Source: Doris montereyensis (lineage: Eukaryota > Mollusca > Gastropoda > Nudibranchia > Dorididae). Taken from it: DNA of 64,000 nucleotides. The stretch spans positions 5,001 to 69,000 of the forward strand of contig JAXRKP010001620.1 of assembly GCA_037039925.1 (NCBI GenBank), given 5' to 3'. Below, piece by piece: positions 8,354-59,399 of this stretch (its first letter is position 1; every line of letters begins with the position of its first letter). Under the pieces are notes generated by a model. It was not told the DNA's origin, searched no databases, and was given only the letters and a program-made list of their open reading frames with translations. The position numbers were made by a program, and so were the translations under genes.

Positions 8354-9440
<1,087 letters not shown>

Positions 9441-13913: not shown

Positions 13914-14985
13914 TTATCCAACAGTGAGTAATTTTAGATAAAGACTAGCAGTGAGGCTACGCCTGTCAGAAGTTAATGTAATGACACAAGACAATATGAA
14001 AGCCCCATAGGAACAAAGACGAGACAAACACAAGGTATAGACAGAAAAAATCCAGGCCACCATGGGGATCGAACCCTGACCTGTCTCGGCACCCATCGTC
14101 TCGCCATGAAAAGAAAGCGTCTACCAATCGAGCTAACTACGCTGAAAAAAGGAGTTTCATTAGCAAGGTCTTTGCACGAACCCAGTCATGACTAGCAGTC
14201 ATATTCACTTACAGTTGTTTTCAGTAGCCTCGATCTACAGATTTCTAGATCTAAACCTAGTATTATATTAAACAACCATTGAACATTGACGAATAAATAC
14301 ATTACAATGATAGTATGCCTCTGAAGTAATCTGACGTAGATAAATACAAACAGTGAGGCGAGGGCTGTCTCCTTAATGTAATGACACAAGACAATATGAA
14401 AGCCCCATAAGAACAAAGACGAGACAAACACAAGGTAGACAGACAGAAAAAATCCAGGCAACCATGGGGATCGAACTCGCGACCCAGTGTCGGCACCCAT
14501 CGCCCTCTCATGAAAAGAAAGCGGTCCAATCGAGCTAACTACGCTCCCTAAAAAGGAGTTTCATTAGCAAGGTCTTTCGCACGAACCCAGTCATGACTAG
14601 CAGTCATATTCACTTACAGTTCTTCAATAAATACTCAGTAGCCCCATTACAATTTTCTCTAGATCCTAAACCTAGTATTATATTAAACAACCATTGAACA
14701 TTGACGTTGGCTGTTTACAATAGATAGTATGCCTCTGAAGTAATCTCTCGTAGATAAATACAACAGTGAGGCGAGGCATGTCAGAAGTAAACATAATCAA
14801 ATAAATAAAACTAAAACGAAAATTCTCTCTCGGCAACCACGCCTCATGAAAAGAAAGCTCAAACGAACTTTTTGAATTCTCATTGTCTGTCAGAAGTTAA
14901 TGTAATGACACAAGACAATATGAAAGCCCCATAGGAACAAAGTGGTTTATCACCATGGGGATCTCTATTAATTAATTCTGACATC
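13914..14985 (-). repeat. Left arm of inverted array: 418 bp repeats with SINE A
   Basis: Reverse-orientation copies of the unit seen cleanly at 15020-16220: two fairly complete units (SINE heads ending near 14130 and 14545) and a third that is scrambled and deleted between 14760 and 14985. Each unit holds a SINE A copy and about 240 bp of flank including AGGCATACTATC and ACTAGGTTTAGATC (reverse complement). Copies are less regular than in the right arm. Confidence 0.85.
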
Positions 14986-15019: not shown

Positions 15020-16220
15020 ATTCACTATTTATCTACGTCAGATTACTTCAGAGGCATACTATCTATTGTAATGTATTTATTCGTCAATGTTCAATGGTTG
15101 TTTAATATAATACTAGGTTTAGATCTAGAGAAAATTGTAATCGGGGCTACTGAGGGAACGAACTGTAAGTGAATATGACTGCTAGTCATGACTGGGTTCG
15201 TGCGAAAGACCTTGCTAATGAAACTCCTTTTTTAGGGAGCGTAGTTAGCTCGATTGGTAGCACGCTTTCTTTTCATGGCGAGGCGATGGGTGCCGACGCA
15301 GAGGTCGCGGGTTCGATCCCCATGGTGGCCTGGATTTTTTTCTGTCTATACCTTGTGTTTGTCTCGTCTTTGTTCTTATGGGGCTTTCATATTGTCTTGT
15401 GTCATTACATTAACTTCTGACATGCCCCTCGCCTCACTGCTTGTATTTATCTACGTCAGATTACTTCAGAGGCATACTATCTATTGTAATGTATTTATTC
15501 GTCAATGTTCAATGGTTGTTTAATATAATACTAGGTTTAGATCTAGAGAAAATTGTAATCGGGGCTACTGAGGGAACGAACTGTAAGTGAATATGACTGC
15601 TAGTCATGACTGGGTTCGTGCGAAAGACCTTGCTAATGAAACTCCTTTTTAGGGAGCGTAGTTAGCTCGATTGGTAGCACGCTTTCTTTTCATGGCGAGG
15701 CGATGGGTGCCGACGCAGAGGTCGCGGGTTCGATCCCCATGGTGGCCTGGATTTTTTTCTGTCTATACCTTGTGTTTGTCTCGTCTTTGTTCTTATGGGG
15801 CTTTCATATTGTCTTGTGTCATTACATTAACTTCTGACATGCCCCTCGCCTCACTACTTGTATTTATCTACGTCAGATTACTTCAGAGGCATACTATCTA
15901 TTGTAATGTATTTATTCGTCAATGTTCAATGGTTGTTTAATATAATACTAGGTTTAGATCTAGAGAAAATTGTAATCGGGGCTACTGAGGGAACGAACTG
16001 TAAGTGAATATGACTGCTAGTCATGACTGGGTTCGTGCGAAAGACCTTGCTAATGAAACTCCTTTTTTAGGGAGCGTAGTTAGCTCGATTGGTAGCACGC
16101 TTTCTTTTTTTCATGGCGAGGCGATGGGTGCCGACGCAGAGGTCGCGGGTTCGATCCCCATGGTGGCCTGGATTTTTTCTGTCTATACCTTGTGTTTGTC
16201 TCGTCTTTGTTCTTAATATT
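15020..16220 (+). repeat. Right arm of inverted array: tandem 418 bp repeats with SINE A
   Basis: Nearly identical direct repeats; the marker TATTTATCTACGTCAGATTA starts at 15026, 15444 and 15861 (spacing 418 and 417). Each unit contains a SINE followed by the flank that leads to the next SINE, so flank and SINE were amplified together. The last unit breaks off at about 16217 within the SINE tail. Confidence 0.95.
15235..15420 (+). mobile_element. tRNA-derived SINE, family A, best copy
   Basis: The head looks like a tRNA gene: A-box-like TTAGCTCGATTGG at 15245-15257 and B-box GGTTCGATCCC at 15310-15320, about 53 bp apart. A non-tRNA body follows to the TTACATTAACTTCTGACATG block. It is not a functional tRNA: the acceptor stem does not pair and a long tail follows. 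Two further copies lie at about 15654-15840 and 16072-16217 in the same array. RNA polymerase III internal promoters of this kind drive SINE transcription. Confidence 0.85.
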
Positions 16221-20799: not shown

Positions 20800-21480
20800 T
20801 CCATGCCCTATTCAAGTAGGAAAGAGTCAAAGGAAAGAAGAAAAGAGTTGTCAGTAGCACATGACCCACTATGACCCATGGGAAGGAAGGGGAATGAGGC
20901 CATTTGTCAGTAGTACCCACTATGACCCAGGCCATTTGTCAGGATGAATGGGAAGGAAGGGGAATGAGGCCATTTGTCAGTAGCACCCCAGGCCATTTGT
21001 CATGACCCATGGGAAGGAAGGGGGAATGAGGCCATTTGTCAGTAGTAACCCCTATGACCCATGGGAAGGGAAGGCCATTTGGTAACCCACTATGACCCAT
21101 GGGAAGGAAGGGAATGAGGCCATTTGTCAGTAGTACCCCACTATGACCCATGGGAAGGAAGGGGAATGAGGCCATTTGTCAGTAGTAACCCACTATGACC
21201 CATGGGAAGGAAGGGGGAATGAGGCCATTTGTCAGTAGCACCCCACTATGACCCATGGGGAAGGGGAATGAGGCCATTTGTCAGTAGTAACCCCACTATG
21301 ACCCATGGGAAGGAAGGGGGAATGAGGCCATTTGTCAGTAGTACCCCACTATGACCCATGGGAAGGAAGGGGAATGAGGCCATTTACCCTCAGATTTGTC
21401 AAACAAACCCATGGGAAGGAAGGGGAATGAGGCCATTTGTCAGTAGTACCCAACGGATGTGAGGCCATTTCTCAGACAAA
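20800..21480. repeat. Minisatellite, about 52 bp unit, grown from an R1 end
   Basis: About 12 copies of ATGACCCATGGGAAGGAAGG, GGAATGAGGCCATTTGTC, AGTAGTACCCCACT. The sequence just before the array (AGTCAAAGGAAAGAAG, then GTCAGTAGCAC) resembles the 3' part of R1, and GTCAGTAGCACC is retained inside the unit. Confidence 0.9.
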
Positions 21481-32500: not shown

Positions 32501-35500
32501 TTTGTAGAATCGATGAAGGTCAGATGTGCCTAAGTGATTGTTATGAAGGTCAGATGTAAACGCCTAATCGTGATTATTATGAAGGTCAGGTGTAAACGAT
32601 CGTGATTATTATGAAGGTCAGGTGTAAACGCCTATCGTGATTATTATGAAGGTCAGGTGTAAACGCCTATCGTGATTATTATGTGTAAACGCCTATCGTG
32701 ATTATTATGAAGGTCAGGTGTAAACGCCTATCGTGATTATTATGAAGCAGTGAATTTTTTCCCTCTATTTGCGTGGATGCAGTAATCTTGGGGGTAACTT
32801 GTGAGGCAATATAAAGGTTAAAGATGAAAGTTAAAAAGAGTGAAAGTGCCCCCCAATAAGCAGTGATGTAAAAACAAGCAATTGATATTGACTTCTATAA
32901 TGTTTGATACTGAAATCTAAGAGTGAGACAAATTATATACAAAAGACAACAAAAGACACAGCCAGACTGATAAAGAAACCATGCCAAAGCTTAAAGTGAA
33001 GTCCCAAAACTTCAGAAAATAAAAGCGAGAGACGATGGAATGACAAAGATCTCTACAGACAGACGTACATACGCACATTTTTGGTTGCACTGACTACCAA
33101 GCAATTCAACGAGTGAGAGAAATAACAATAACATTAAAAAATATATAATAATAACAACAATAATAATAAACACCCAACAAGTTCAAAACAGTTCAAGGCA
33201 GGGGTGAAGGTGATGCCCTTTGTCGGTGATTACCTTCCTTTCTAGGTGCATGGGTGACCAGCGGTGGGGTGGAGAGAGCGACAGGCCCACCACTCTCAAA
33301 ACGCCCACCACCACCACTCCCAGAGGCGGTCCCTGAGAGCCGCCAGCAAAAACAGAAGAAAAGAACAGGATGAATAGAAGAAAGTTTGGTGGGGGAGTTT
33401 TTTGGTTTCAAATTGATCATTTTGTCGTTTTCTTTTTTTTTTTTATTATTAATGTGACTATAACACTAAGCAACGATTGTCAAGCCAAAGACAGTGACAG
33501 TTTCTCGGCTTAACGTGAATACAACACTAAGCAACAGGTGTCAAGCCAAAAACAGTTACAGTTTCTCTAATGTAAATACAACACTAATCAATTGTTGTCA
33601 CGCCAAAGACAGTTTTAGTTTGTCGGCTCATTGTGAATACAACACTAACCTACGGTTGTCAGGCCAAAAACAGTTACAGTTTGTCGGCTAAATGTGAATA
33701 TAACACCAATCAATGGTTGTCAAATAAAAGACAGTTACAGTTTGTCGGCTCAATGTGAATACAACACTAAGCAACTGTTGTCAAACCAAAGACAGTTACA
33801 GTTTCTCGGCTAAATGTGAATATAACACCAATCAATGGTTGTCAAACAAAAGACAGTTACAGTTTGTCGGCTCAATGTGAATATAACACTAAGCAACGAT
33901 TGTCAAGCCAAAGACAGTTACAGTGTGTCGGCTCAATGTGAATATAACATTAAGGAATGGTTGTCACGCCAAAGACACTTACAGTTTATCAGTTCAATGT
34001 GAATATAAGACTAAGCAATGTTGTCAAATCAAAAGCAGTTACAGTTTCTCGGTTCAATGTGAATATAACACTAAGGAACGGTTGTCAAGCCAAAGACAGT
34101 TACACTTTGTCGGCTCAATGTGAATATAACACTAAGGAACGGTTGTCAAGCCAAAGACAGTTACACTTTGTCGGTTCAATGTGAATATAACACTAAGGAA
34201 CGGTTATCAAGCCAAAGACACTTACAGTTTGTTGGTTCAATGTGAATATAACACTTAGGAATGGTTGTCAAGCCAGAGACACTTACAGTTTGTTGGCTCA
34301 ATGTGAATATAACACTTAGGAATGGTTGTCAAGCCAAAGACAGTCGCACAGTTTGTCGGCTCACAATGATGGTCCTGTATGTCCCACAAGTTGGATGATT
34401 TTGGAGTTATAATCATCATCCGATTCAGTCTGTCAATGGTCCTGTCATCAGATTCAGTCTGTCAATAGATTCAGTCTGTCAATGGTCCTGTCATCAGATT
34501 CAGTCTGTCAATGGTCCTGTCATCAGATTGTCATCAGATTCAGTTTGTCAATGGTCCTGTCATCAGATTTAGTCTGTCAATGGTCCTGTCATCAGATTCA
34601 TTCAGTCTGTCAATGGTCCTGTCATCATATTTAGTCTGTCAATGGTCCTGTCATCAGATTCAGTCTGCCAATGGTCCTGTCATCATATTTAGTCTGTCAA
34701 TGGTCCTGTCATCAGATTCAGTCTGTCAATGGTCCTGTCATCATATTTAGTCTGTCAATGGTCCTGTCATCATATTTAGTCTGTCAATGGTCCTGTCATC
34801 AGATTTAGTCTGTCAATGGTCCTGCCATCAGATTCAGTCTGTCAATGGTCCTGCCATCAGATTTAGTCCGTCTTCTTCTTTAATGGGATGGATTACATTT
34901 TGAGTTGCTTTAGAGATCCTTGAAATGGAAAATCAAAGACTGCCTCAATTGTGGGTCCATGTGACCAATGGTCCTGTCATCAATCAGTTTGTCAATGGTC
35001 CTGTCTTAAAAAAAAAAAATGTTTTAAATGTGTGACCAAGTTTAGTCTTCTGTTTGTAATCAATTTCATTTGAATTTTGTTGTTGTCTTTAGTTTGGATT
35101 ATCTTTCCAGGTGAGAAATTTAGATCTGTTCTAGTCTTTCTCCCCATGAGTTTATGTGTAGTTCGGACTATCATACAATTCTAAGCCAACACTATCCCCC
35201 TCCACCCTGTCTGACTTATTCCCACTGGACATTTGAAGCCAAATTTTCATTATCACCATGACGAAGACTGCAAATTTGTTTGTTTTATTGGGAATTTACC
35301 CTGTCCACCATATGTGGTGATTTGAGGGTGAATAAGGAGAGAAAAGCGAGATGGAAATATAACTGAAATAGTTAAAGAAAAGTCATAAGAACGCCCGCCA
35401 ACAGAAGTAAAATAAAATAGTGACTTTAATACTCACCAAGAAATCAACCTCAAGCACACACAGCAATGGTATTTTAAAACGCCAAAGATCCCAAAAACAA

Positions 35501-41500: not shown

Positions 41501-44500
41501 CTACATATTGTAGAACAGATTTAATGAGTTATTATCTCTACATATTGTAGAACGCACCTAATCAGCTCACAAGCTGACAATCTCTACACATTGTAGAATG
41601 CCTAATCAGGGCTCACAATGGGCGTGTCAATCTCTACATATTGTAGAACAGACTTAATGAGGGCTCGAAATGGGTGTGTCAATCTCTACACACTGAAGAA
41701 TGCCTAATCAGGGCTCACAATGGGCGTGTCAATCTCTACACATTGTAGAACGGACCTAATCAAGGCTCACAATGGGCGTATCAAAGCATGCGACGCTGTC
41801 GAGCCCAACACCTGACTCAGTGGATATTCCTAGTCCTGTGCCTTTGGCAAGAATAATTTGTTTTTTTCATGGACGCCTGACAACATTTTTACTCACACAT
41901 GTCAACTAACCAGTTGTAAATAAACACTTTGCAGTTTTCCTGTTATTGTTTAGTAAGTCTTTCACTGAAAATCTAACACAGACTGAGACAAATCTGTGTC
42001 TATCTTTTTCTACTATGAGTTCTTAATTTTGTATTTCTTTAGGTAAAATCTCACAATACATATGAAGATCTAGATGCGTTTATGTTCCAACAGTCAGATA
42101 TTGGTTAAAAAAAAAAAATGTCTTGCCGGGCAACATTCTGAGTATGGCTCAGCGATTTTCATTGCACTCACATGCCAGAACCCATAGACCTACGTAAAAG
42201 TTTTTAGATTTTCAGGTTTTCTGTGTTTGTTCTCTTTTAAACACATCTAACATTCAAAACTTTTCATGAGAAAATTGCTGGTATCATCTGAAAAATGATT
42301 TGTCTATTGTTACATCTTCCTTTAGAGAAAAATTATTCCTCTATTGCTCTCACTGTAAAAAAACCCACCCCACAACATTTAATTTTTAAAAATTTTACGG
42401 CTGTCCCAACTCAAAACACTGGCAGTGTGTGACTCAAACAGATAAAATGCCAAATGTCATGACCAAGTTGGATGCTACAAATGTTCAATGTATTTTTAAT
42501 AACAAAACACACTGTAGAGAGAAAAATATGACATAAATATAACACACACAAATAGCTTCTTACCTGAATCTTCAATGCATGTGACATTGTTGTCAGGATC
42601 CAGTTTAAAACCTGCACAGCAATCTGTCAGCATGCGATACCGCACAACTGACTGGTTTTTCTGGAGCAAGCAATCCGTAATTCTGGGAAAATACACACAT
42701 ACAAATAAATACATACACACATATTTTTTTTGCTTTTGATTTAGGGTTTTTACTTTTAGCATATATATGCGTAACTATCAAAATATAGTCATCCTATATC
42801 ATTGAAAAGTTTGTAGAGGCCTTGATTGCCAAGAAACCGGTGCCATCTGGGATTTTGACCCAATTTTCCAAAGCTATCTCCTCACTTAGTTTTGAATAAA
42901 ATCACTCAAAACCTGTGAAGGGTATTTTTTCCATTCAATATTTAAAGAATGGCATTGGGTTATTAAGATATATTTTGGTTATTTAAAAAAAAAAAAAGAA
43001 ATTTTGAAAATAGCTTATATCGTTTATATACAAAAATGGCATTTTTATTAAACAAAATGTTTTCTTTCAGGCGGTTTACAAAATATAAAAAAACCCTGAT
43101 GTTATTCTATTAACATTGACAAGAGGAACTTGTGTATCACATATTATACAAATTTAGAAATTTAGTGGGAGAAAACTACATTCGAAAAAATGTGAACAAA
43201 GAAATCAAATGAAAATAATACAAAAAAGACACTTCAGACGGGTTGCCCTTCTTGTAGCAGCCTCTTTACTCTTCTGACAGTCTCTGGCATTGATACGAAT
43301 GTAAAGAGGATTGTAAATCTAGGTTTTTCACTGATAAATCTTTTTATCCTAAATTGATATACCTGTTTTACTACTGGTTTATTTAACTCTACTTTGAGTT
43401 TAGTAGCTTTCTTCTCTTTCCTTTTCTGTTTGTTTTCCTCAGTCAGTAATCTCATTTTGCCAATCACTAAGTGATGATCACTTAATATTTCTGCTCCTCT
43501 GTTTACTCTTGCATCCAATGTACTGTAAAAAAGGGAGCTGATAACTATTATGCAGTCTATCATTGACTTTTCACACCTGTCTTCATTTACTCTTGTATAT
43601 TTGTGGATGTCTTTATGAGGAAAAAGGTGTTGGCTATTTTCGTGTTATTCTTTAAGCAAAAATCTATGAGTCTCTCTCCATTTGAGAAGTAGTTATCTCT
43701 CCTTCTTTACCTATTACACCTCCTGACGTTTCTACATTGTTGCCTACTCTAGCGTTTAAATCTCCTAAAAGCAGTAGTTCCTGTTTGGATTTAAGACTCT
43801 CTGCAGCTATTTTTAAATCATTTTCGAAAATCTTTTCTTCTTTAGTTTTGGTCTTCGTTTGGTCCATAAGCTATTAATAATTTAATTTCTGGTCCTTTTG
43901 GTTTAATATTTACCTCTAATAGCAGTGGGCTTATAAATTCCCAACTTTCTAGTTGCTTTTCATGCCTTTTATACACTAAGAGGCCTACTCCTGCTCTAGC
44001 TCTATCTTTGACATCTACTCCTGAGAAGATAAAAATATGATTGGTCCTACATTTTCTATTCCTTGTCCTTTTTTCTTTGTCTCTGTAATGGCCAAAACAT
44101 CTACTTTGAATTTTTTCCATTTCTTCAACTAATACTAACTCTTTTCCATTTATTGCCCTAACGTTCCATGTTCCAAAAATCACAAATGTTGTTTTCTGTC
44201 AGGGTTAACTCCCTTAGCCTTTGGTCAACCAAGACCTGCCTGCAAGACAGCAGGAGACTCGTGGAGGGCAGGATGGATCATCTACTCCCCGTATAGGTGC
44301 TTACCTGTCCACTGCCCGGTTTTTCAGTATCTTTTATTTAAATTGAAAAAAAATAAGTAACAAAAAACGTGTGCATAAAAACAAAACGCTGATTGGCCGA
44401 GACTGGTAGGTAGGTGTCTTTTGTCTATCGAATGACCGCAGTGGGCGGGTCAATCTCATTGTGTCGAGTTAAAGTTACATTACAATACAATATAAACGAT

Positions 44501-51331: not shown

Positions 51332-51634
51332 ATGTCTCGCTATGTGCAGTCTTCAAATCCTTTTGAAGACGATGAAGATGAAGGCAATTTTGTGATGGTC
51401 GATAAACAGAGCAACAGATCATCATCTAACCCAAGGTCAACACAAGGAAGTTCCAATGTCTATGCCAAAAATCATCACTGGAATGCTAGTGGTGAAACGA
51501 GCAGTCCCTTTGATGATCGACGGCAACACTTGATGCAGCAGATTCAGAATTCTGAAAATACCCAGTTAGAAAGTACACAACGAGCATTAGCAAGCATCTA
51601 TGACTCAGAGGCGATGGGCGTTGCCACAGCAGAG
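51332..51634 (+). CDS. SNAP29: SNAP29 exon 1
   Basis: The start ATG begins MSRYVQSSNPFEDDEDEG, matching the family's NPF-acidic start; an upstream in-frame TTG is not a start. It ends in ALASIYDSEAMGVATAE, the beginning of the Qb SNARE helix, with donor GAG|GTTTGT, phase 0. Whether 5' UTR exons precede it is not clear. Confidence 0.93.
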
Positions 51635-54600
51635 GTTTGTTAAAAACAAATTTATCAATGAATTATTTGCTCACAGACATCAAAGTCCTTATGTGGCGCC
51701 GATGGCCTCGTGGTTAGTCTCCTAGACTTTAAATCATGGGGTCTCTGGTTCGAATGCCAGCAATGCTAGATCCGGCACTTTGTTCCTTTAGAAAGACACT
51801 TAACACACATTTTCCCTATCAGTCAATGAATCTCCTCGTTACAGTTGCTTTCATTTGCCAATGATTTAGTTCTGTTTGGAAAATCAGAAAGTGACCTTCA
51901 ATCGAATAACAACATTATGAACAATGAATTAAATAAAAGAGGAACGAGAGTAAATGCAAAGAAAAGCAAAACAATGCTAGTAACTAGGGAAGCTAAAACA
52001 CAAAATCTTAAATTGGGCAGGGAGAATTTAGAACAAGTTCAAAGCTACAATTATCTAGGAGTAATGATTAAACAGAGGGAAAACTAACAGAAGAAATCAG
52101 CCAGAGGATCAAAAAGGCAAGTGCAATATATAACCATCTAGGAAAGGCATTTGTAGGTAAGCAAGAATTGTCAACAAAAACCAAAATGGCAGTATACAAT
52201 ACAGTTTATTGTCCTTCTCCTCTATGCTCCTCTATGGCAGCGAAACATTGACCTTAGACAGTAGATAATACAGTAGAGTACAGGCAGCTGAAATGAAATG
52301 TCTAAGAAGAGTAGTAGGGAAAACTAAAAGAGACAAAATCAGAAACACAACATTAAGAGATTAAACCAAAGCAGATAGCATAAAAACTAAGATAGAAACA
52401 AATCAATTGAGATGGTTTGGGCATGTGAACAGAATGAATGACAATAGAATAGCTAAATCAGTATACAGTGCTAAAGCCCAAGGTAAAAGACCAAAAGGCA
52501 GACCTTGGAGAAAGTGGGAAGAAGATATAAAAGAGGCATTGAAGCATAGCAATTTAACTTTTTTGGAAGGAAACAGAAATTGCCAGGACAGGGCATCTTG
52601 GAGAAAGATCATCTTGGCATCTGAACCCATACACCGAAAGGTAGAATGGGAACTTATAAAGAAAGAAAGAAAGTAATTAGCAAGTAAAGAAATAAAAATG
52701 ACAACAAAATCAAAACATAAAATGATGCGACTTAGAACAGCATAACTGTGTGCCTGTGACGCTAGATATGGAATGCCCAAAAAATTCACCCAAAAGGCGC
52801 AGAACTGCAAAAATAATTGTGGTGACCTGTCGACCACTACTCAAGTGCCCGCTTAAGCTTGCTCCCAGCCACTGTGCACTTGGGCGACGACTACTACAGT
52901 GAGATAGTTTAAAACATCATGTCTTTTATGTTATTTGTGATAATGTGTCTTGTGGTCTAGGCCAATTTTGTTTTTATCTCTGATTTTTTAATATTTTATA
53001 CATTTTGTATACTGAATTAGTCTACCCATGCATACTACTAACTAGCCTAGAGTCGATTGAACACGGAAGTGAGACAAATTCAAATTTGTCCTTCCTAGTT
53101 TTTAATCTACCACAAGCATGAGGTAAACGATTTAACAGAACATTTTTTAACTTGCCATACTCATCTCTAATTATTCTCATCATCAAATCTATATGTTTAG
53201 ATTGATAAATTACGTCCACCCTTTATATATTATGTATTTGATCTAACAGTTTGTAGAAGTTATGAAGATCTGTTTTAAAAACCTATTGTGATTACACACT
53301 AGATATTTCCTCCATTACAACATGATGTGATGTAATGTATAAATTATGACTTTTGCTTGTTTTTCATATCGCAGAAACTCCTTCATCAAGACGACACGCT
53401 CAAAATTATGATTTTTGTTTTGTATTTCACTTGAGGAACCTTCGCTCAAGGAGACACGCTCAAAAGTGTTGAGAAAAAAATGGACGGGATGCAGCACAAC
53501 TTGACAACATCTCAGCGTCACATCAATAACATCAAAAGCGTGTTTGGAGGCATCCGGAACTGGTGGTCGGGAGATAAGAATTCTCAAGGTCAAAAGAAGA
53601 GTGCAGACGATGCCAGTACTAGGTATAGCAATAGTTTCCTATAAACAGAAAATGGAAAAAGAAAATAATCGTTCAAGGCCATAACAACCCATAGAGCTGG
53701 AGCAAATATTGGTTTTTAGTGCAAAGCAGAACAGGTGACTTCCTGTATTACCTGCAAGATGGTCTTGCGGCAAGGCATCGGCCTCTCAACCAGAAGGTCT
53801 TGGGTTCAACCCCGGCAGGTTGGAAAGTTTTCTCGAGATTTTTCAAGTAAAAGCCATTTCCTGGTTGAGGTGGGTGGATCGGCACCTAGTCCCGTAGGAG
53901 ATGGACAATAAAAAGGAGGTCCCAAGTGTAGATCACAACACCATGTGCGCATTAAAATAAAGATACATTGGCTGTTTACAGGGCGCCAGTTAAAGTGTGA
54001 AACCAAAATATGCTGACGATTCAGTTTTTCACCTTCGCCATTAAAGATTATTAACTTTTTGACAAGTTTTGGCAATTTAGTGTACACTTATCTATACCAG
54101 CACTGATGTAAACACAAACACCTTTGCGAACGCCGAATCTTTGTTGCCAGACGACATTTTGATAAAGCGCTGGGATTAACCGATTCTTATGCCATCTGAG
54201 AACCTTACAAATCATGTCGACAGACGTTGCATCATTTCAAGAAACAAGAATACAAATGAATAGAATGTATACATGTCTTTCCACACATACTATTTGAGAC
54301 AGGAAACACATGCTATCATTATCACCTTATTTCCAATGAATCGTTCTCATCAGCCGTAATTCAACATCGGCATAACTTTAGACCTATGCTTTCATGAAGT
54401 TATGACAACTTAGCGACTTGCCTGAAAAGTGAAATCCACTCTTGATGGAGAGGAGATTTTAAAGCATAGGTAGATATACTGACGATCCATTGAAAATGTA
54501 TTACGTTTACATATGTACATGTAATTGCAAACTCAGCATGAGAGAGAGAGAGATATATGTTACACGGTCAACCACTAAAGGGCATTTTCTGGTTGATCTT

Positions 54601-57600
54601 AGGTGTCGTACTGGCTGTTGGGGATAATGAATTTGTGTATGTATGGTGGAGAGCATACGTTGAAAAGCATCATCATTGCAATCAAAAATCTTGTTTCAGA
54701 TTGAGAAATACATTGGAAAAATCAGAAATGCAAAAAACAGACGTCAGTGGTTTTTATGATGATGACGAAGACCTTGATGACAAGTTCATGGCCAAGGCTC
54801 CACGACGTGGCAGCAGCCAAGGCCAGTATTCCATGATTTCACCCCATCACCCGCTCTGCTCGAGAAGAAGATGTCGATCAAAACTTGCGTAAGTGGCTGT
54901 ATTCATATTGTTTTGAAATTCATAACAACTGCATGTCTTTCTAATCAAAATTCATACAATATCATCAAAACTTGTTCGCTGTTATGAATAGGTGAGATGG
55001 TTTAGCACAACAGGATAAACTTTATGACTCCATGCCTATCGTCGATTTTCATACTAATCATAAGCAGAAGCATGCTGCTTCATTTTCACTTTGACTTTCT
55101 GACGAACTGCAATTTCCACACTGATCAGTAATGCCCTACTACTCACGCGAGAAGATTTCAGATTTAAAAACTGGAACCTTCCTTAGGTTCTTTCAAATTT
55201 TTCAGGGTTTTTAGTCTGAAATATACTAACACATTTGTTGTGGAAATAGCTTTTCATGGAGGCTTTTGGGAAAGATTTAGCTAAATTAGGATAGCCTATC
55301 AATGTTGAGATGCACTGACTTGCCTCTGCAGTAGTACGGTTCAGTTGTGAATTTGGTCTGCAGTCGATGATTTTTCATTTTTTCATTCCAGGACAATGAA
55401 AGCTAAATCATTTTACATTTCCTATTGCGTTATTTGTGATTTATTTTATCCTGTTTGTGGGTTATTGTGATTTAATAATCTAATCTACATCAAGAGCTAG
55501 ATAAGATTAGGATCGATCTGCTTGAGTGAAGTGACCTAGATTTTTTTATGAAGGCTTGACAACCCTTGGCCATAACTTTGGGTTACAAGGAATTCTTGGG
55601 TTCGTATAATTAGCATATAAATAGATCTAGCGTATTAACAGATTAAAATTATTCCTTGCTCGGCATTCCAGAGAAATCTAGATTATAGTGGATATAGAGA
55701 TCTTAAAAATAGCGCACACGTGGTTGATCTAGATCTAGATTTAGATTTTATAAATACAAACAAGCTATTTTATGATAGATCTGGATTCAATCTAGTAAGA
55801 TCTAGATATATCTAAGTCTAATTGTTATCTAGAGGCATAGAAACTATGAGAGTAGATTTAGATTTCTAGGTCTAGAATTTGTGGCACCCATTTTCTTTCA
55901 ATAACTTTAGTAGAGCTAGAGTTAGATTTCTAGATCTATTTCACTTGGTCGTCTAGTAAATTGAATCAGAATTGATTGAGAATTTTGCTAACAAGCAAAT
56001 CTTCAAAACAACTAGTTCTAGCTCTAGATCTAGACAATTTAATAAATTGGGGATGACCTGTCAACAGTTAAGGTTTATTGACTGGGATTTGCCAGTAGAA
56101 ATGATCGATCTAACTTCTAAGAACAAATTCAGGTGGGAATGGCTGTCAACTAAATGTTGTAATGATGAATTCCTTTCTACGTATATCAAGAAAGGTTGAG
56201 AAAGATGGCATTGCATGGTGCTGTTATTGTAAGTGTGAGATTAAATACGGTACAGGAGGTGTTCGGTGTATGAAAGTTTCACATTTCAGATACTTTCAGA
56301 TTTTTTTCATTTGCCATTTACATCCCTGCATAATATATTATATGTATGTATTTCAATCAAAATGGGTGACTTTTCACTAAACCATTTCCAATTATATTGT
56401 AACGTATTTCTCACCACTGTTAAGAACATAGGATGTTTGGAACTTTTTTCATCTGAAAGAATTGTTTCTCTTGATTTTATCACTATTATCAGGTCACCGC
56501 AGAATTTTATTGTCCTCGACTTGCTTGAGTTCATTTCTTTGGGTAGTCTTCTGCCCGTTGGTGTCGATGATTCTCATTGTTGTTGACCTCCATTCATATC
56601 TGTTTCGTGTCCCTGTATTGACATCAAATCGACTTAGTTTTGTCAAAGATACTCGAGCAATAATATGTTTCATTTCGAGTTTTTGACAAGATAAAATATG
56701 AGTGATATCTCCTCCTTTTTCATGGCTAGGCTAACTGCCTGCCAACCTGTCAGTGCCCGGGGTTCGAAGTTATGTCTTTTGAACAAGCAAGAATCTACAT
56801 TAAATTTTACATTAAAATCTACATCTAAACGTTAAGATTAGATCTAGATCTATCTTCTAGATTAGATCTAGCTTCTAGATTAGATCTAGCTTTTAGAATA
56901 GATCTACATGCAGCGATAGAGTTTGCTACATGTAGCGATGAAGTTTGTTTCGCATTCTAGATCTAGCTTTGCTCTAGATCTAGATCTAAATAAACTCTAC
57001 TATATTTAAAAATCTATATACAATTGTCTTCTCAAAACAGATATACCCCGGCAAAAAAAACAAACTGAGAGGTGGAAGCTTATAGAAAGAGAGAGAAGAG
57101 AAGGGGGATAGACATACCGACAAAATTTCATTGCAACTTACTGCATCCACCATATGATATAAATCCATAAATATCGCTTGCATTACAGGATGGATCTACT
57201 TACAACATTAATACGACACAGTAAAAAACAATAACAAAAGAAGCGATTTATTTTGCAGCATACGGTTTCACTGCGAAGAACAGCTTTGTAGCTGGCTCAA
57301 CTTGATTTAATCATCAAGACCCAGGGTTTGGCACTCAAATCATTACTATAACCAATATTTTATATAGTAAAAAACGAAGTGATCCATCTTATTGTTCTTA
57401 GTATATCTTTGATTTTGTCCAGTCTGTGATGCTGTTTCTATGAGATGACCCGACCAGCTCAGATTTTATTTACGATTTTAGAGATGATCTTTCATGAGAG
57501 ATGACCCGGCTAACTTGGAATTTATTCTAGAATTTTAGAGATGATATTTATGTGATGACCCAAGAATTACTTGGAATTTATTTTACAATTTTAGAGATGA

Positions 57601-58130
57601 TATTTATGTGATGACCCGACTTACTTGGAATTTATTTTACAATTTTAGAGATGATGTTTCATGAAATGACTGGAATTAACTTGGAATTTATTGACAATTT
57701 TAGAGATTTTGATGGAATAACCCGACTAATTTCGAATTAAAATTTTTTTTTTAGAGATGATGTTTCATGAGAGATGAGCCAACTAACTTACAATTTTAGA
57801 GATGATGTTTGATAGAATGAGCCCACTAACTTGGAATTTATTTTACAATTTTTCGAGATGGTGTTTGACGGAATGACCTGGCTAACTTGGAATTTATTTT
57901 ACGATTTTTGAGATGATGTTTGATTGATGACCTGGCTAACTTGGAATTTATTTGATAATTTTAGAGATGATGTTTCATGGAATGACCCGACTCAAGGGAC
58001 TGGCCTCAGGCTAGGGGATGAAATTGAACGTCAAAATGAACAACTGGACAGAATCAATGTCAAGGCCGAAGCAACAGACGACCTTCTGGAAAACCAGAAT
58101 TCACAAATGAGAAAGATTTTGAGAAGATAA
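51332..58130 (+). CDS. SNAP29: SNAP29, Qbc-SNARE, four coding exons
   Basis: Join: 51332-51634, 53436-53622, 54700-54888, 57965-58130; phases 0, 2, 1. About 281 residues (vertebrate SNAP29 is about 258). SNAP29 forms SNARE bundles with a Qa syntaxin and an R-SNARE, best known in autophagosome-lysosome fusion with syntaxin 17 and VAMP8. Seen here: NPF at 9-11 followed by acidic residues (EHD-binding in the family); N-terminal SNARE helix from about 80 to 145 with zero-layer Gln at 106 and the NNIKSVFGG block; a Cys-free acidic linker, as expected for SNAP29 and unlike palmitoylated SNAP25; C-terminal SNARE helix with Gln at 250 in EIERQNEQLDRI. Three single-base indels (near 53439, 54842-54845 and 58011) break the frame; all splice sites are intact. 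Assembly error is more likely than a dying gene. Confidence 0.93.
51693..51810 (+). mobile_element. tRNA-derived SINE, family C-like
   Basis: A-box region ATGGCCTCGTGGTTAGTCTC, B-box GGTTCGAATGCC, then a tail with AGAAAGACACTTAACACACA. It lies in SNAP29 intron 1 and is not a functional tRNA. Confidence 0.75.
51845..52676 (+). pseudogene. Non-LTR retrotransposon reverse transcriptase 3' fragment
   Basis: First frame LSFANDLVLFGKSESDLQ is the RT catalytic block, with FAND where active enzymes have FADD; it continues to YNYLGVMIKQREN. After frame breaks it ends with MRWFGHVNRMNDNRIAKSVY and GKRPKGRPWRKWEEDIKEAL, the usual C-terminal LINE block. It is 5'-truncated and dead, in the sense orientation of SNAP29 intron 1. 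Confidence 0.88.
53343..53466 (+). repeat. Tandem duplication of SNAP29 exon 2 acceptor, 62 bp
   Basis: Copies start at 53343 and 53405 (ATTATGA..TTTTG). Each holds a T-rich tract, an acceptor-like AG (53374 and 53435) and about 30 bp of exon 2 start up to ACACGCTCAAA. Only the second copy continues into the rest of the exon; the first would run into a stop. Confidence 0.85.
53436..53622 (+). CDS. SNAP29: SNAP29 exon 2, second of two duplicated starts
   Basis: Encodes QGDTLKSVEKKMDGMQHNLT, then SQRHINNIKSVFGG and a WW-containing segment, ending STR. Donor AG|GTATAG, phase 2. The exon start is one base short (GAACCTTCGCTCAAGG against AAACTCCTTCATCAAGA in the first copy), which breaks the frame with exon 1. 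The acceptor TTTCACTTGAG ends in GAG, weaker than the TATCGCAG of the first copy. Confidence 0.85.
53750..53985 (+). mobile_element. SINE family B
   Basis: tRNA-like head with CAAGGCATCGGCCTCTCAAC and B-box-like GGGTTCAACCCC, then GGTGGATCGGCACCTAGTCC, AGATCACAACACCATGTGCG and CTGTTTACAGGGCG. It lies in SNAP29 intron 2. Confidence 0.75.
54700..54888 (+). CDS. SNAP29: SNAP29 exon 3
   Basis: Acceptor AAAATCTTGTTTCAG, donor C|GTAAGT. Encodes LRNTLEKSEMQKTDVSGFYD, an acidic DDDEDLDD stretch, KAPRRGSSQGQYSM, and after the CCCC run at 54842-54845, in the shifted frame, ITRSAREEDVDQNL. One C too many in that run explains the shift. REE..VDQNL is the family block just before the second SNARE helix. 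Confidence 0.87.
54889..57430. other. SNAP29 intron 3, left part: palindrome-rich
   Basis: No exon seen. Rich in TAGATCTAGATC-type palindromes at 55480-56030 and 56830-57000. A partial R1-like piece (TTTCATTGCAACTTACTGCA, CCACCATATGAT) lies at 57123-57165. Confidence 0.5.
57431..57964 (+). repeat. Tandem array of SNAP29 exon 4 acceptors, about 55 bp unit
   Basis: About ten units, each with CTAACTTGGAATTTATTTTAC, AATTTTAG and AGATGATGTTTCATGGAATG then ACCCGACT. The first two parts are the intron end (branch-point-like CTAAC, T-rich tract, AG) and the last is the first 28 bp of exon 4. TTTTAGAGAT is intact in most units; two units (near 57857 and 57908) have lost the TAG. Confidence 0.92.
57965..58130 (+). 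CDS. SNAP29: SNAP29 exon 4: C-terminal SNARE helix and stop
   Basis: Acceptor TTTGATAATTTTAG with branch-point-like CTAAC at 57936-57940. In phase 1 it encodes MMFHGMTRLKGLASG, then after one missing base near 58011, LGDEIERQNEQLDRINVKAE and a tail ending KILRR, TAA. This is the Qc SNARE helix with its zero-layer Gln. The exon start is the last unit of a tandem array. Confidence 0.88.
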
Positions 58131-58404
58131 ATTTTTGACTTCTGTTCTCTCAATATGTTCATTATCCACCACTTAAAGCTTCTCTTTTTTCTTCTTATTT
58201 TTGTGTCGTTGTTTTTAAGTTCTCTTGTCTCCTTTTATTCTATGTTTTCAAGGGACATAATTCAATTTTTCCATGAGGAAGAATATTTACGAGTGATATT
58301 ACTTCTTGTTTTATTTACACAAAATTTAGGCTTCATGAACAAAAAGAATGTTCTGTGTGGCTTTTAATTTTTATAACATCAGGGATGACTCTCCTGGCAT
58401 TCAA

Positions 58405-58559: not shown

Positions 58560-59250
58560 TAACAAGCAATTACCAAAAATTAGAATTTGACACTTGTCTG
58601 GTTAGCACTTACTAAAAAATAGAATTTGACAATTGAAGAGGTCATTTCAATAGTGTGCCAATGTCCACTTTCAAGGAATACGACACAGAGAGATAATCCT
58701 AGGGAATAAAAGGAAATCGTGCTTCCACAAAAGTATGAAAATGATATGATGAAAACACATCACATTTTAGGCCGTTTGAAACTTGCAATTTCCAAAGCCA
58801 CCTGTGCCCAAGTCCATTGTTTTTGGCACTTTTATCTAAATGATGTAATTGGGACTTAGGCACACTATTGAAATGGCCCCTTCAATTATCTATTTAGCAT
58901 GTACCAAAAATAGATTTTGACAATTATTTATTTAGCAAGTAAGTATCCAAAAAATACAATTTGATCATTGTCTATTTAGCAAAAAAAGTACCCCAAAATA
59001 CAATTTGATAATTATCTATTTACAAGTACCCAAAAAATACAATTTGATAATTATCTATTTCACAAGTAGCCAAAAAATACAATTTGATAATTATCTACGT
59101 AACAAACATTCAAAAACTATAATTTGACAATTATCTATTTAGCAAGTACTCATACAATTTGACAATTATCTATTTAGCAAGTACTCATACAATTTGACAA
59201 TTATCTATTTAGCAAGTAAGTACCCAAAAAATACAATTTGACAAAATGAT
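58560..59250. repeat. Degenerate minisatellite, about 40 bp unit
   Basis: About 13 copies of AATTTGACAATTATCTATTT and AGCAAGTACCCAAAAAATAC, split by a unit-free stretch at 58650-58880. Confidence 0.9.
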
Positions 59251-59399
59251 CTATTTAGCGCAATGCTCTTGAAACCCACATCAGTTATTCCTCAAATATC
59301 TTTGACACAACATCCCAAAGGTGTTCTGCTACTATAAGTGTCTCAACTGTGTGTCATTGTTCTTTTACACACAAAGATGTGTGAGATAGTTCCCTATAT

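Follow-up and report, generated by a model that had tools for sequence, protein, structure and literature searches.

The last 3' splice junction of the SNAP29 gene in the nudibranch Doris montereyensis stands at the end of a minisatellite whose repeat unit is the junction itself. The gene lies on the forward strand of the window, which is the whole 64,000 nt stretch analysed here (assembly GCA_037039925.1, contig JAXRKP010001620.1, positions 5,001 to 69,000). A second duplicated junction is present at exon 2 of the same gene, minisatellites are common in the surrounding DNA, and no second SNAP29 was found in the searched sequence of the assembly (513 Mb in 3500 contigs). The best explanation, to which we give a probability of about 80%, is that the array is a minisatellite of the 'mirage' type known from amphioxus that has since decayed, with splicing most likely at the last copy and the decoys rarely or never used. 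We infer the mechanism of duplication, the AG that is used and the near-neutrality of the extra copies.

The intron 3/exon 4 junction array

Tandem Repeats Finder places the array at 57428-57992, with a period of 56, 10.5 copies, 74% matches and a score of 486. Within 57428..57964 (+ strand) nine decoy junctions, ending at 57481, 57538, 57594, 57648, 57703, 57754, 57799, 57855 and 57910, precede the presumed true acceptor, which ends at 57964. The units are 45-57 bp long. A sequence-only reading had described about ten tandem 3' splice sites in units of about 55 bp, followed by the real exon at 57965 as the last unit, and these features were all recovered. When the segment around the true junction is aligned to the 400 bp upstream of it the score is 82, a value reached by none of 500 dinucleotide shuffles (maximum 34). 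A further decayed unit upstream of 57426 was looked for and rejected, since the three 58-61 bp stretches there score 11, 14 and 15, within a background that has a mean of 13.3 and a maximum of 21.

The position of the exon 4 splice boundary comes from protein homology rather than from RNA. Exon 3 ends in phase 1 with a C, and the AG that opens exon 4 completes the codon to give NL-QMMFHGMTRLKG, for which the Aplysia counterpart is NLQMMGEGMARLKG. An alignment of 15 rows, consisting of the composite Doris protein and 14 SNAP29 proteins (13 of them from named gastropods), sets the exon 3/4 splice between ...NL and QMM..GM.RLKG. By this homology the 28 nt exon part of the repeat unit is conserved SNAP29 coding sequence, and the unit crosses the exon-intron boundary. 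The proposal that the intron-exon junction itself had been amplified is thus borne out, as the orthologous exon 4 does contain the repeated segment at the protein level. At the gene end of the array the boundary and homology of exon 4 are intact, yet there is a single-base frame break within the exon as assembled.

Pairwise identity between units is 57-95%, with all pairs except one at 57-85%. Apart from the single 95% pair, identity shows no steep gradient with distance between units. Diverged copies of this kind, lacking such a gradient, resemble an old minisatellite. The divergence also bears on whether misassembly could have produced or enlarged the array. Indel noise does seem to be present in this assembly, but copies of one locus that had been misjoined would not be expected to differ to this extent, and a search using 57401-58200 as the query matched this locus alone. 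Misassembly of the array is therefore considered extremely improbable.

The SNAP29 gene

The composite SNAP29 has 281 codons, joined from four exons of the window, all on the + strand (splice boundaries are shown here by a slash). Exon 1 (51332..51634), assigned from sequence and homology, encodes the NPF motif and the start of the first SNARE motif and has the donor GCAGAG/GTTTGT. Exon 2 (53436..53622) has the donor AGTACTAG/GTATAG and a single-base frame break near its start. Exon 3 (54700..54888), of which the acceptor CTTGTTTCAG is not duplicated, has the donor ACTTGC/GTAAGT. The last exon, exon 4 (57965..58130), encodes the C-terminal SNARE motif and ends with a TAA stop codon at 58128-58130.

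The composite has two SNARE motifs, an N-terminal NPF and similarity to SNAP29 over its full length. Aplysia californica SNAP29 matches the entire composite at 61%, and the window gene is closest to those of heterobranch gastropods, among which it groups in a maximum-likelihood tree with support of 94-95. Both SNARE motifs match the SNAP29 SNARE chains of 7bv6 and 4wy4, and the N-terminal NPF is invariant across the 15 aligned rows. A Pfam scan of the composite returned no family at or above its cut-off. In the search of the assembly for other SNAP29 sequences the fifth match was a SNAP25 exon, and no SNAP29 was confirmed among viral contigs. Pieces resembling non-LTR (long terminal repeat) retrotransposon proteins by eye are present at 51830-52673, which is within SNAP29 intron 1, and at 2391-2880 and 43714-44184, the latter two matching each other at 85%.

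Splice signals in the decoys

The presumed true 3' splice site module (57936..57964, + strand) has CTAAC at 57936-57940, a T-rich tract and TTTTAG. Most, though not all, of the array copies retain the splice dinucleotide. TTTTAG is retained in seven of the nine decoy units; decoy 57855 has TTTTCG and decoy 57910 has TTTTTG, each with an AG 2 nt downstream. The exact TTTTAG/AGATGATG is found in just three (57648, 57754 and 57799), with AGATGATA or AGATGATC in three further decoys and AGATTTTG in decoy 57703. The sequence-only reading had counted about seven upstream units with an intact TTTTAG and exon start; the number stands for TTTTAG, not for the exact junction.

A branch-point-like CTAAC had also been attributed to every unit. 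Normally spaced, meaning 18-35 nt before the AG, it is present at the true site and in three of the nine decoys (57538, 57855 and 57910), while in decoy 57799 it is just 16 nt before the AG. The motif spans the seam between copies, where exon-derived ...CCGACT is joined to AACTTGG, the start of the next copy's intron part. CTAAC and TTTTAG occur together at normal spacing only in decoy 57538, as the other two decoys with CTAAC have lost TTTTAG. The suggested series of some seven intact acceptors in competition is accordingly not supported. Looser branch-like words are present in the remaining decoys and animal branch points are degenerate, so live decoys are possible; such degeneracy could make more of the decoys usable. 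Splicing is most likely to 57964, a site that has kept both CTAAC and TTTTAG and is alone in being followed by the long terminal exon.

The nine decoy reading frames each reach a stop after 5-30 codons, without the C-terminal SNARE. As assembled, the true acceptor also leads to a stop, after 16 codons, because of the single-base frame break in exon 4. The idea that only the last unit leads into SNARE-coding sequence is therefore right for the decoys but, for the last unit itself, holds only across this break. If a decoy is used, the resulting protein would have just the N-terminal SNARE motif. Messenger RNAs with a stop in the last exon could escape exon-junction-dependent decay, and since exon 4 is the last exon, decoy-spliced mRNAs might do so.

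It is conceivable that the array is a functional ladder, whose many acceptors tune SNAP29 output by titrating splicing factors or by holding back the inclusion of exon 4. The retention of TTTTAG in most decoys, the truncated decoy frames and the low rate of change of TTTTAG, lowest among the five parts of the unit that were scored, would fit such a role. To quantify change per column, 57428-57964 was aligned periodically. Among windows of 15 columns the one at the junction has changed least, but it was equalled in 419 of 2000 sets of shuffled columns, which is not significant, and on this result selection for keeping the decoy acceptors was rejected. An anchored alignment, in which TTTTAG is 96% conserved against 78% elsewhere, was not relied on, as the anchor favours the junction. 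With both splice elements kept in one of nine decoys, and with an array much like the numerous other minisatellites in the window, a functional ladder is very doubtful.

A variant of this idea treats the ladder as a splicing rheostat that varies in copy number. The number of live acceptors, and hence the ratio of full to first-SNARE-only SNAP29, would differ among individuals, and selection would have disarmed the decoys one element at a time. TTTTAG is lost in two of the three CTAAC-bearing decoys and in none of the other six (Fisher p = 0.083, noticed post hoc), which faintly suggests disarming. A rheostat is nonetheless highly improbable. Neither the column conservation nor the TTTTAG/CTAAC pattern supports a functional ladder.

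Origin of the array and the second duplicated junction

The mirage-type minisatellite probably began when a stretch of about 55 bp was duplicated in tandem, the breakpoints lying some 28 bp into intron 3 on one side and 28 bp into exon 4 on the other. Slippage or unequal exchange would then have amplified it to ten junction copies, which decayed afterwards. Such a duplication would preserve itself, as its first copy is joined to the intron and its last to the remaining exon; an intact exon start would always lie downstream, with additional copies merely lengthening the intron and the decoys used rarely or not at all. For this reason, the keeping of an intact exon start at the downstream end, a tandem duplication that spans an acceptor should be tolerable, unlike a duplication within an exon.

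At exon 2 there are two copies of the intron 1/exon 2 junction. The upstream duplicate (53343..53404, + strand) was identified by local alignment and has an acceptor-like ATATCGCAG ending at 53374; in the downstream, presumed true, copy (53405..53464, + strand) TTTCACTTGAG ends at 53435, giving a spacing of 61 bp. The local alignment of 53343-53404 with 53405-53464 scores 44, which was reached by none of 2000 shuffles (maximum 28) and by none of 500 in a separate test. This duplicate is absent from the Tandem Repeats Finder listing and had been overlooked in the sequence-only reading. No clear signal of duplicated donors was seen at the 5' splice sites of exons 1, 2 and 3, which score 22, 15 and 22 against the downstream intron, scores for which no shuffles were made.

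Using a definition of unit length 20-120 bp and score of at least 100, minisatellites cover 11,483 of the 64,000 bases of the window (17.9%) in 22 merged arrays. In 20 arbitrary 10-kb regions of the genome chosen by the authors (172.5 kb unmasked, non-N) they cover 11.7%, ranging from 0 to 41% per region. Adjacent 75-bp blocks of the window score at least 44, the level of the exon 2 pair, in 464 of 2554 pairs. As tandem repeats are common in both the window and the sampled regions, a repeat across an exon edge is unsurprising in itself.

Nine other acceptors served as a control: that of SNAP29 exon 3, those of six kinesin exons, located by motif strings and one of them with a Pfam match, and those of one SNAP25 and one transporter exon. 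Their positions were placed by eye. Eight of the nine show no sign of duplication, with at least 111 of 500 shuffles reaching their score. The transporter acceptor scores 25 (2 of 500 shuffles), owing to a weak and unconfirmed 31-column similarity 285-316 nt upstream. This pair (L020, 8296-8326 against 8609-8638) is possibly a decayed junction duplication. Duplicated junctions are not the rule in this genome, yet they are present at two of the three SNAP29 acceptors.

Some of these data weigh against an array that simply arose from the repeat background and drifted. Of 11 acceptors, two, both in SNAP29, are clearly duplicated, one weakly and eight not, so the density of repeats would not by itself lead one to expect two duplicated junctions in one gene. 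In addition, 2 of the 60 cells in the TTTTAG columns have changed, compared with 14% of cells in the whole alignment, a difference that would be compatible with weak selection to keep the acceptors as well.

Frame breaks in SNAP29

There are three single-base frame breaks relative to the orthologues, in exon 2 (53436-53447), exon 3 (54842-54845, one extra base in a run of C) and exon 4 (about 58010-58014). These raise the possibility that the SNAP29 copy is a pseudogene, which would have left the ladder free to decay. No such breaks were seen in a transporter frame of 501 codons or in the pieces of kinesin and SNAP25. The composite also differs at 9 of 111 positions that are invariant in the 11 other heterobranch-clade rows, where leaving out each of those rows in turn gives 0-4; one of the nine differences, R148H, stems from the exon 2 copy chosen for the composite. 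Among the heterobranch rows the composite has the longest terminal branch, 0.50, followed by one of 0.31.

Against this, no nonsense codon was seen in the 281 composite codons besides the frame breaks, the lone stop inside the exon 1 match being beyond the donor, and the replacements are conservative. Departures over all 15 rows amount to 6 of 74 sites, compared with 8 of 76 for Haliotis and 7 of 75 for Littorina, and the root-to-tip distance, 0.935, is not far above the range of 0.77-0.90 seen in Lymnaea, Physella, Biomphalaria and Bulinus. Comparable lesions are found elsewhere. A 417-bp tandem repeat at 15026-16215 has 2.8 copies of 99% identity, whose differences over 774 bp come to four homopolymer indels and one substitution. 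Just upstream of it, at 13935-14797, are inverted indel-rich copies with 35 mismatches and 32 gaps, and an array at 20878-21438 has 19 mismatches and 35 gaps. The last exon of a P450 gene on another contig (G000:C150, about 86061-86220, in L008) is in three frames within 160 bp, with two frame changes within about 40 nt that, on inspection by eye, look like the loss of two bases from short runs. The assembly is not uniformly noisy, to judge from the 501-codon open frame of the transporter gene (Pfam match to residues 16-104 of the 484 scanned) and from an array at 33449-34363 with 111 mismatches but 7 gaps. With no second SNAP29 found in the searched assembly sequence and with lesions of this kind elsewhere, assembly error is the more likely source of the frame breaks; we lean towards it, and a pseudogene is unlikely.

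Relation to known systems

Arrays called 'mirage' have been described in amphioxus genes, where they are reported not to seem to disturb regular splicing; in the Adh, globin, troponin C and PGBD5 genes, which have the same structure, the absence of disturbance is reported or inferred (PMC3087553, PMC3902484). As far as the excerpts of these and the other papers cited here go, the mirages of amphioxus Adh3, globins BflGb6 and BflGb9, troponin C and PGBD5 are like the Doris array in that units span an exon-intron boundary, several copies are present with the true exon at the end, and splice signals are found in many, not all, copies (PMC3087553, PMC3902484). Units of tens of bp are likewise seen in amphioxus Adh3 (10-72 bp), and somatic instability is described for amphioxus Adh (PMC3087553, PMC3902484). 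The differences lie in the host, a gastropod rather than a cephalochordate, in the gene and in the roughly ten junction copies. The Doris units (57-95% identical) are also more diverged than those of amphioxus BflGb6 (81-100%). Two haplotypes of an amphioxus globin gene differ in repeat number, with 6 units in one and 3 in the other (PMC3087553, PMC3902484), and by analogy variation of the SNAP29 array between individuals is plausible.

Judged by its sequence, the array fits the structural definition of an amphioxus-type mirage minisatellite. The novelty is the animal group and not the mechanism: a structure known from cephalochordates would now also be on record in a mollusc, where a single gene has about ten junction copies at one of its acceptors and two at a second. 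A literature search found no report of such arrays in molluscs, although the original amphioxus Adh paper (PMC117041) was outside its reach.

The array may be seen as a natural counterpart of experiments on duplicated 3' splice sites, bearing on how the spliceosome selects the last of many similar acceptors. Reed and Maniatis (1986) reportedly engineered such duplicates of beta-globin. These share with SNAP29 competing acceptors and a short or long piece of exon behind the upstream copy, but they are artificial, have two copies and were studied in nuclear extract. In vitro, a duplicated beta-globin 3' splice site is described as using the downstream copy exclusively and very inefficiently, with the upstream copy followed by 14, 55 or 205 nt of exon; mention is also made there of reports that exon length affects the choice between the sites (PMC5389562).

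Intron gain by tandem duplication was considered and rejected, as the unit TTTTAG/AGATGATG contains no AG/GT and falls within the already present intron 3, whose donor follows 54888. Zhuo et al. (2007) are said to have described introns arising from tandem arrays or duplication. Introns and alternative splice sites can arise from tandem duplication that carries splice signals, and in such cases exonic sequence with AG/GT or cryptic sites is repeated to give a new intron (PMC2812944, PMC2891723). The SNAP29 array differs in that what is repeated is a 3' splice junction that was already there, with no sign of a new intron.

The Doris case suggests that minisatellite-rich genomes may produce such structures repeatedly. 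No tRNA genes were found. Just 3' of SNAP29, a neighbouring minisatellite at 58884-59259 has a 40-bp unit in 9.4 copies.

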